From an uncultured Eubacterium sp. (GTDB taxonomy: Bacteria > Bacillota > Clostridia > Oscillospirales > Acutalibacteraceae), in NCBI GenBank assembly GCA_905234995.1, contig CAJOJV010000003.1, forward strand, positions 1-64,000: a stretch of DNA of 64,000 nucleotides. Direction: 5' to 3'. Both the position numbers and the translations under genes were made by a program. Shown here piece by piece: positions 10,736-51,459 of this stretch. Below the pieces are notes generated by a model. The model was not told where the DNA came from and did no database searches. It saw nothing but the letters and a program-made list of their open reading frames with translations. Numbering within the stretch: position 1 is the stretch's first letter; every line of letters begins with the position of its first letter.

Positions 10736-10739
10736 AAAT

Positions 10740-10844
10740 GGTAGGAACAACAGGGCTCTCCTCTCTGGCTATCAAACAGTCCACCGGACTGTTCTCCCAA
10801 TCGGCTCACGATGCGAGCCTCTTGGAGCTCGTTTCTCGCCCTGT
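10740..10844. repeat. tRNA-Val-linked structured element ending in a partial copy of the tRNA-Val 3' end
   Basis: ggtaggaacaacagggctc (10740-10758) matches tRNA-Val 3' end ggtgggaacaacagggctc (10884-10902) at 18/19; acagggc (10750-10756) pairs with gccctgt (10838-10844); internal hairpins acagtccaccggactgt and ggctcacgatgcgagcc. Confidence 0.7.
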
Positions 10845-10881
10845 AAAAAAAACAGCGGTTACACAATTGTGTAACCGCTTC
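10845..10881 (-). terminator. terminator-like hairpin downstream of tRNA-Val
   Basis: Minus strand AAGCGGTTACACAATTGTGTAACCGCTGTTTTTTTT. Confidence 0.8.
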
Positions 10882-50983: not shown

Positions 50984-51077
50984 ATGCGCAAAACTGGATT
51001 AATTAGAAAATTTTCACAACTGAACAATATAATAACAGATGTTAAACAAAGCGATGTGTCGAGCCTCGCTTTGATTA

Positions 51078-51329
51078 TGCAAGAGACGGGACTTTCTTGC
51101 AAGACTATCGTTATCCTTTAAACAATGCAGGGTATTGAGCCCTGCATTGTTTGGGACTTTCCTCTCCGGCTATCGAAAAATGAGTTTTAGAGGGAACGGT
51201 CATCCGACCAACGGTGCCCAAAATTTGTTTCGGCTTGAAGCGCCGACAAATTTTGACCGTTCGGCAGTTCTTATTACTCCCTTCATCTCCCACTGGGAGC
51301 GGTCGCAAATGAACCGTTTCAAGTCCCGT
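51078..51329. repeat. tRNA-Leu-linked structured element ending in a partial copy of the tRNA-Leu 3' end
   Basis: tgcaagagacgggactt (51078-51094) matches tgcgagagacgggactt of tRNA-Leu (51378-51394) at 16/17; ttcaagtcccgt (51318-51329) is a 12-nt perfect inverted copy of the T-arm (51386-51397); internal 13-bp hairpin 51120-51152. Confidence 0.7.
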
Positions 51330-51337
51330 TATCAATG

Positions 51338-51376
51338 AAAAAAGCTTAGATACCAAATGGTATCTAAGCTTTTTTG
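51338..51376 (-). terminator. terminator downstream of tRNA-Leu
   Basis: aaaaaagcttagataccaaatggtatctaagctttttt, ~16-bp palindrome with flanking A/T runs. Confidence 0.8.
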
Positions 51377-51377
51377 G

Positions 51378-51459
51378 TGCGAGAGACGGGACTTGAACCC
51401 GTACGAGTCGCCCCACACGCCCCTCAAACGTGCGCGTCTGCCGATTCCGCCACTCTCGC
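51378..51459 (-). tRNA. tRNA-Leu (anticodon GAG)
   Basis: GCGAGAGTGGCGGAATCGGCAGACGCGCACGTTTGAGGGGCGTGTGGGGCGACTCGTACGGGTTCAAGTCCCGTCTCTCGCA; anticodon loop TTGAGGG. Confidence 0.93.

Follow-up and report, generated by a model that had tools for sequence, protein, structure and literature searches.

Behind the tRNA-Leu(GAG) gene near 51 kb of the window, the 64,000-nucleotide stretch of DNA that was analysed, the 3' end of the tRNA recurs in both direct and inverted orientation, and this raises the question of what kind of element carries the ends of its own host tRNA. The first-pass annotation had described a tRNA-linked element that acquires or templates its ends from the resident tRNA. We find that the region contains a unit inserted behind the tRNA and since damaged, one member of a large family of such tRNA-anchored elements. 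This family is real and widespread within one bacterial group, and is apparently undescribed so far: literature searches found no description of the element and, at gathering score, Rfam recognised only tRNAs in the window, which holds two such elements. Weak miRNA-type Rfam matches around the Leu hairpins were dismissed as chance.

The tRNA-Leu(GAG) locus

All features of this locus lie on the minus strand and are given in the order in which that strand reads. The host gene, tRNA-Leu(GAG), is called by both ARAGORN and Rfam (51375..51459), and its nt 57-76 are AAGTCCCGTCTCTCGCACCA (51375-51394). It is followed by a proximal terminator, a perfect 18-bp hairpin (51338..51375), which separates it from the element. 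The element opens with a LEFT end, ACGGGACTT, the reverse complement of tRNA-Leu nt 57-65 (51321..51329), directly followed by a conserved GAAAC (51316-51320). The core is then split by a nested repeat of about 110 nt (about 51205..51315), after which come the right-hand core motif CGATAGCCGGAGAGGA (51160..51175), found in this exact form elsewhere almost only behind tRNA genes, a first RIGHT end, AAGTCCC, corresponding to tRNA-Leu nt 57-63 (51153..51159), and a 13-bp terminator-like hairpin (51120..51152). A second right half lies beyond this hairpin, so that the locus holds two of them (51153-51175 and 51078-51110): by its sequence, CGATAGTCTTGCAAGA (CGATAG...GA; 51095..51110) is the remnant of the right-hand core motif of an older unit, and it is followed by a second RIGHT end, AAGTCCCGTCTCTTGCA, matching tRNA-Leu nt 57-73 at 16 of 17 positions (51078..51094), and by a distal terminator-like hairpin (51043..51077).

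The repeats and hairpins in the first-pass annotation are all present. The direct copy of the tRNA-Leu 3' end (51078-51094 against 51378-51394) is 16/17 identical at a spacing of 300 bp, the inverted T-arm copy matches at 12/12 positions (51318-51329), and the two stems are fully paired (13/13 in 51120-51152; 10/10 in 51219-51228 with 51246-51255). However, several of the hairpins belong to other features. The 51219-51255 stem (caaaatttgt) and ctcccactgggag belong to the nested repeat, while the 13-bp hairpin is terminator-like. At the orthologous tRNA-Leu(GAG) locus of a relative (G044, locus L210), the core is intact and the nested repeat absent; the element occupies the same site, flanked on one side by the tRNA and on the other by the 3' end of the adjacent gene, an H+-pyrophosphatase by sequence.

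The nested repeat (GGTTCGTTTGCGACCGCT...CAAAATTTTGGGCACCG) is itself mobile, entering tRNA elements and other sites, once within an apparent reading frame. Besides 51205-51315 of the window, its copies in the same genome (G000) are at C6:48539, C30:25595, C34:28391, C69:3178, C26:1798, C27:89 and C42:2445, with no tRNA ends around those at C6:48539, C30:25595 and C42:2445.

A family of elements with tRNA-specific ends

The general order of an element, of about 100 nt, is tRNA, terminator or short linker, LEFT, a conserved core of about 80 nt, and RIGHT. LEFT is the reverse complement of the element's own tRNA at nt ~57-65, and RIGHT is a direct copy starting at nt 57 and originally running to the CCA. 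An intact member sits behind tRNA-Val(TAC) (10749..10846, minus strand; model R1, E=4e-23), where LEFT (ACAGGGC), the core, the right-hand motif and the start of RIGHT are all preserved, the RIGHT copy of tRNA-Val nt 57-76 being GAGCCCTGTTGTTCCTACCA (10739..10758, minus strand); relatives have an empty site there. Used as a query, the element found 18 places in its own genome, a rumen MAG resembling Oscillospiraceae. When the flanks of all 41 tRNAs of this genome were compared, the layout was shared behind Val, Thr, Glu, Ala, Leu, Ser, Met, Pro, Arg, Gly and Lys tRNAs, each flank carrying its own tRNA's sequence in LEFT and, if preserved, in RIGHT. A direct match to the tRNA's own 3' end scoring at least 12 was found behind 11 of 37 tRNAs, against 0.4% with swapped flanks, and an inverted match to its own T-arm scoring at least 12 behind 7 of 37, against 0.0%. 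Other core types share this layout behind tRNA-Gly, tRNA-Leu(CAA) and tRNA-Lys (C8:45250, C1:1569 and C30:79122 of the same genome).

Beyond this genome, a covariance model, which favours intact copies although degraded ones exist, matched in 61 of 198 relatives, mostly congeners, with up to about 20 matches per genome. The distribution is patchy, as about 30 of 79 congeners have no model match. The 100 copies retrieved represent about 28 tRNA types, and the carriers with a name on record are MAGs from rumen and gut assigned to Oscillospiraceae, Ruminococcaceae and 'Eubacterium sp.'. A search with the core pattern gave 118 matches: in 88, an intact tRNA lies no more than 400 nt upstream, three look like chance (in Flavobacteriaceae, Thermoplasmata and Saprospirales records), and most of the remainder are found at the ends of contigs or follow truncated 3' ends of tRNAs. 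The same pattern had no match in the viral collection searched. At two loci (L181 and L358), the ends of the copies resemble by eye the 3' end of tmRNA (AATTCCCACCGCCTCCACCA), with no tmRNA gene called there by ARAGORN; the resemblance suggests that ssrA may also be a target.

The fit between element ends and host tRNA, first noticed for Leu, extends across about 28 tRNA types (81 copies). LEFT pairs with 6.6 of the seven nt 59-65 of its own tRNA, against 5.0 for shuffled tRNAs (maximum 5.3 in 2000 shuffles), while RIGHT matches its own tRNA at 17.8 of 20 positions, against 11.1. RIGHT begins at nt 57 in every clear case, placing the right junction at C56|R57. Identity between RIGHT and tRNA is 0.93-1.0 at nt 57-65 and falls to 0.77-0.9 at nt 66-76, so displaced 3' ends decay outside the stem. 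The expectation of compensatory changes between the inverted and direct copies was not borne out: none was found, and where RIGHT departs from the tRNA, LEFT usually still fits it at nt 59-65.

Behind tRNAs with G57A58, the LEFT dinucleotide is either the complement TC or GA; with A57A58 tRNAs, GA never occurs and the dinucleotide is TT, apart from one TC (GA form in 36/62 and 0/19, respectively; Fisher p=2e-6). Because of this alternation between exact complement and GA, simple copying of the tRNA is insufficient to account for LEFT. Tandem sheared pairs are possible where GA faces GA, and we therefore infer that a continuous stem matters. LEFT could equally have been inherited within tRNA-specific lineages or templated from the resident tRNA. 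The core sequences indicate that such lineages exist, together with within-genome spread or homogenisation: the nearest core neighbour is of the same tRNA type in 17.6 cases against 3.5 expected (fivefold) and comes from the same genome in 13.2 against 4.6. Moreover, units arranged in tandem at one tRNA may differ clearly in their cores and share the same tRNA ends (L130, L147 and L148), and two copies with LEFT from one tRNA and RIGHT from another (L170 and L177) are best read as recombinants.

Duplications of tRNA 3' ends are standard for ordinary integrated islands, and islands with junctions at the anticodon loop are present here too (L395, L185 and L133). One could speculate that phage or ICE tyrosine integrases made the duplications and that the core is a left-over hairpin that flanked the att site. 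We regard this as very unlikely, as one and the same core, joined at nt 57 and lacking an integrase, recurs at about 28 tRNA types, whereas ordinary islands have a single att specificity and no inverted T-arm copy.

Insertion, fold and the genes between units

Orthologous loci reveal what is inserted. The spacer between tRNA-Val and tRNA-Asp consists only of CAT in one relative (G060; ACCA-CAT-GGCCCGG), and in the genome of the window it holds a unit that ends in a second tRNA-Val end followed by TTT (ACCA-TTT-GGCCCGG). Similarly, two tRNA-Ala genes are separated by TTC in G044, by a unit in the genome of the window and by a degraded unit in G058. The insertion therefore amounts to exactly one unit and an added copy of nt 57-76. 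Thus, of the proposal that the ends are acquired or templated from the resident tRNA, the part concerning RIGHT stands, since RIGHT duplicates the resident nt 57-76, but templating of LEFT was not demonstrated. The terminator stem between tRNA and unit was absent in all seven copies with another tRNA directly downstream; since units in tRNA operons do without it, the terminator is not obligatory for a unit. The left junction in such operons often lies directly behind the CCA. Elsewhere, copies have been lost, interrupted or degraded at orthologous loci.

The exact duplication of nt 57-76, the precise empty sites, the left junction right behind the CCA, and copies that arise and decay are also what a MITE-like non-autonomous transposon would leave. 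Here, a putative transposase would cut the 3' end of the tRNA gene with a 20-nt stagger (C56|R57 on one strand and after the CCA on the other), nt 57-76 would be the target-site duplication, and cargo would arrive by other routes. Indeed, the direct duplication alone is equally explained by such a staggered-cut insertion. We nevertheless consider a transposon unlikely, because it explains neither the complementarity of LEFT to the same tRNA nor the same-type ends on both sides of cargo, and because the Y1 transposases and RAYTs have no link to the element.

LEFT, core and RIGHT can be folded on the tRNA-sense strand into a tRNA-specific stem, P1, bearing two conserved hairpins. Pairing reaches 98.0% in P2 and 99.8% in P3, and numerous double changes give both helices strong covariation. 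P1 is 96.3% paired; because both of its strands mirror the same tRNA, its covariation is partly trivial and we have not taken it as proof of an RNA helix, a problem from which P2 and P3 are free. P2 has 109 G.T against 0 A.C, with a U.G pair kept in nearly all copies, and the mismatches in P1 comprise 17 G.T and 17 A.C, with no G.U excess. In 80 of 82 copies, the better fold is that of the tRNA-sense strand (DNA parameters were intended in this calculation). Given this and the U.G pair of P2, it is the sense strand that folds, either as RNA or as single-stranded DNA.

The strong covariation, the conserved loops and a LEFT that still fits the tRNA after RIGHT has changed could mean that the host selects for an RNA with a function at tRNA loci, such as a regulator or a decoy that uses LEFT to pair with the T-arm of the tRNA. 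This seems to us rather improbable, if less so than integrase-made islands. The elements are patchy, with no match in those roughly 30 congeners, and are lost, interrupted or degraded at orthologous loci; array members kilobases away from the tRNA retain the same fold; the P1 mismatches lack a G.U excess; and terminators usually precede the element.

The reading we favour, with confidence a little short of even, is that cassettes are inserted at the tRNA T-loop (C56|R57), with the folded LEFT-core-RIGHT acting as an integron-like attachment site. The unit would be a cassette made of tRNA nt 57-76, terminator, cargo genes where present, LEFT and core, and it would recombine into the T-loop of a matching tRNA through a recombinase acting in trans. 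The incoming cassette would supply a new 3' end to the tRNA, and the old end would be pushed downstream as RIGHT. The attachment site would be the folded single strand, in which P1 recreates a double-stranded T-arm half-site, as in integron attC or the folded attP of CTXphi. Against the cassette reading stand the finding of no dedicated recombinase, the lack of a gene that recurs beside the units, and the fact that most units carry no cargo. In addition, purine-rich conservation of the kind seen in the core (GAAACGAA / TGAGARGA) is less typical of attC than of structured RNAs or binding sites for proteins.

At several loci, pairs of units with one tRNA's ends bracket genes, although most units are cargo-free, and all units of one array carry ends of the same tRNA. 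At a tRNA-Gln locus (L392), a unit is followed by PDC-M69A/B/C-like genes, a unit of another core type (E2) and then a C5 methylase. The bracketed genes encode an unknown protein and a Phd/ParE toxin-antitoxin pair at L180 (Leu-cag), a metallo-beta-lactamase fold (MBL, metallo-hydrolase) protein at L391 (Trp), a 189-aa protein at L394 (Leu-cag), a 1781-aa protein at L396 (Ser) and a SHOCT protein at L181 (tmRNA-like ends). In L392, the RIGHT that opens the gene segment preserves the whole tRNA 3' end, CCA included, and has a terminator-like hairpin, as would be expected if it had once been a working tRNA end; a terminator-like hairpin follows the pre-cargo RIGHT in L392, L394, L180 and L396. 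Leu-type ends next to unrelated genes, which the first-pass annotation had set against its own proposal, occur in modified form only: tRNA-specific ends can lie 1-6 kb from the tRNA, but within arrays anchored at the same tRNA type.

Some of these segments deserve mention in their own right. In L392 (1534-4201), one tRNA-Gln-specific element precedes the PDC-M69A/B/C-like candidate defence operon and another the start of the C5 cytosine methylase gene. An ABC transporter/two-component module (L395, 1098-6279) and a GH32 gene (L185, 588-1945) each lie between element-bearing tRNA 3' parts that start at the anticodon loop; this is typical of integrase islands, and neither was counted for the cassette reading. 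A defence-type RT beside an element in G048 was rejected as cargo, as it lies upstream of the tRNA. Across all loci, no recurrent gene was found beside the elements, only ordinary flanking genes.

Candidate enzymes and comparison with known systems

Searches for the phage-integrase family in the genome of the window and in element-rich relatives found no dedicated recombinase. The former has three matches (one Xer-like, one phage-type and one fragment), none recognisably intI, and the latter have one to four, with only the Xer-like one in G044, which has 10 elements. The host Xer-like protein is thus the only integrase common to the genomes checked. Matches to this family were fewer in element-rich genomes (1-4, that of the window included) than in element-free ones (3-12; Mann-Whitney p=0.03), a comparison confounded by assembly completeness and by the choice of genomes. 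Y1 transposases occur in 38 of 80 congeners, with none in the element-rich G044 or G048. A TnpB/Cas12 guide-RNA idea, with the guide behind a GTTC motif, was rejected, as there was no PF07282 match in the genome of the window.

A retroelement was also considered, in which an RNA ending in nt 57-76, cut behind the CCA by tRNA 3' processing, would prime on a nicked matching tRNA gene and be reverse-transcribed. The conserved fold on the tRNA-sense strand would suit this, as would a left edge that can coincide with the tRNA processing site and a right tail that would anneal to the target. We give it little credence, however, because RVT_1 had no match in the genome of the window or in the element-rich G002, G007, G031, G006, G044 and G058, and because units at different tRNAs have different terminators.

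Among known systems, REP/RAYT and IS200/IS605 elements come close in that the GGGAG and ensuing perfect hairpin seen here recall the layout of REPs. They differ in that the ends here are tRNA-specific, and the REP/RAYT idea was rejected, as the element is missing from the flanks of the RAYT genes in these genomes. Casposons also produce target-site duplications at tRNA 3' ends; however, they carry TIRs together with cas1, and no more than 4-7 nt of a tRNA fall within their sites (PMC4046053), whereas the duplication here is 20 nt, with no TIR. Islands integrated at tRNA genes, of the ICE, prophage or tycheposon type, likewise keep the tRNA intact and place a second, direct copy of its 3' end at the far junction. 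In contrast, the units described here are of about 100 nt, have no integrase gene by the tRNA and an extra inverted T-arm copy, and share one core at about 28 tRNA types.

The comparisons with CTXphi attP and integron attC rest on established knowledge. As in CTXphi-type attP and other Xer-exploiting elements, two inverted half-sites lie about 80-90 nt apart with internal hairpins between them, and a Xer-like protein is the sole integrase common to the genomes checked; that Xer is used here is conjecture. Unlike in CTXphi, the target is the tRNA T-arm, not dif, and there are no phage genes. With integron cassettes, the elements share a non-coding, imperfect inverted-repeat site folded on one strand, an outer stem formed from two junction half-sites, tandem units, genes between sites and insertion next to a fixed target. 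Many integron cassettes carry defence or toxin-antitoxin genes. The differences are that the target here would be the T-loop of many different tRNAs, that the core is conserved in sequence and most units are empty, that the outer stem is tRNA nt 57-65 with its complement and not the RYYYAAC/GTTRRRY of attC, and that no integron integrase was seen.

On the narrower reading, this is a structured family outside Rfam that inserts at many different tRNAs without breaking them. If the cassette reading is true, it would mean integron-like stockpiling of genes in Clostridia, with the cell's tRNA genes as a panel of attachment sites, and would explain the build-up of small integrase-less gene modules at tRNA loci. 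More tentatively, we propose a tRNA-anchored cassette system unlike integrons, in which any tRNA, and possibly tmRNA, could serve as the attachment site, each cassette would bring a replacement 3' half, specificity would reside in the tRNA-matching stem of a folded site of about 100 nt, a host or novel recombinase would act on it, and arrays would collect defence and accessory genes.
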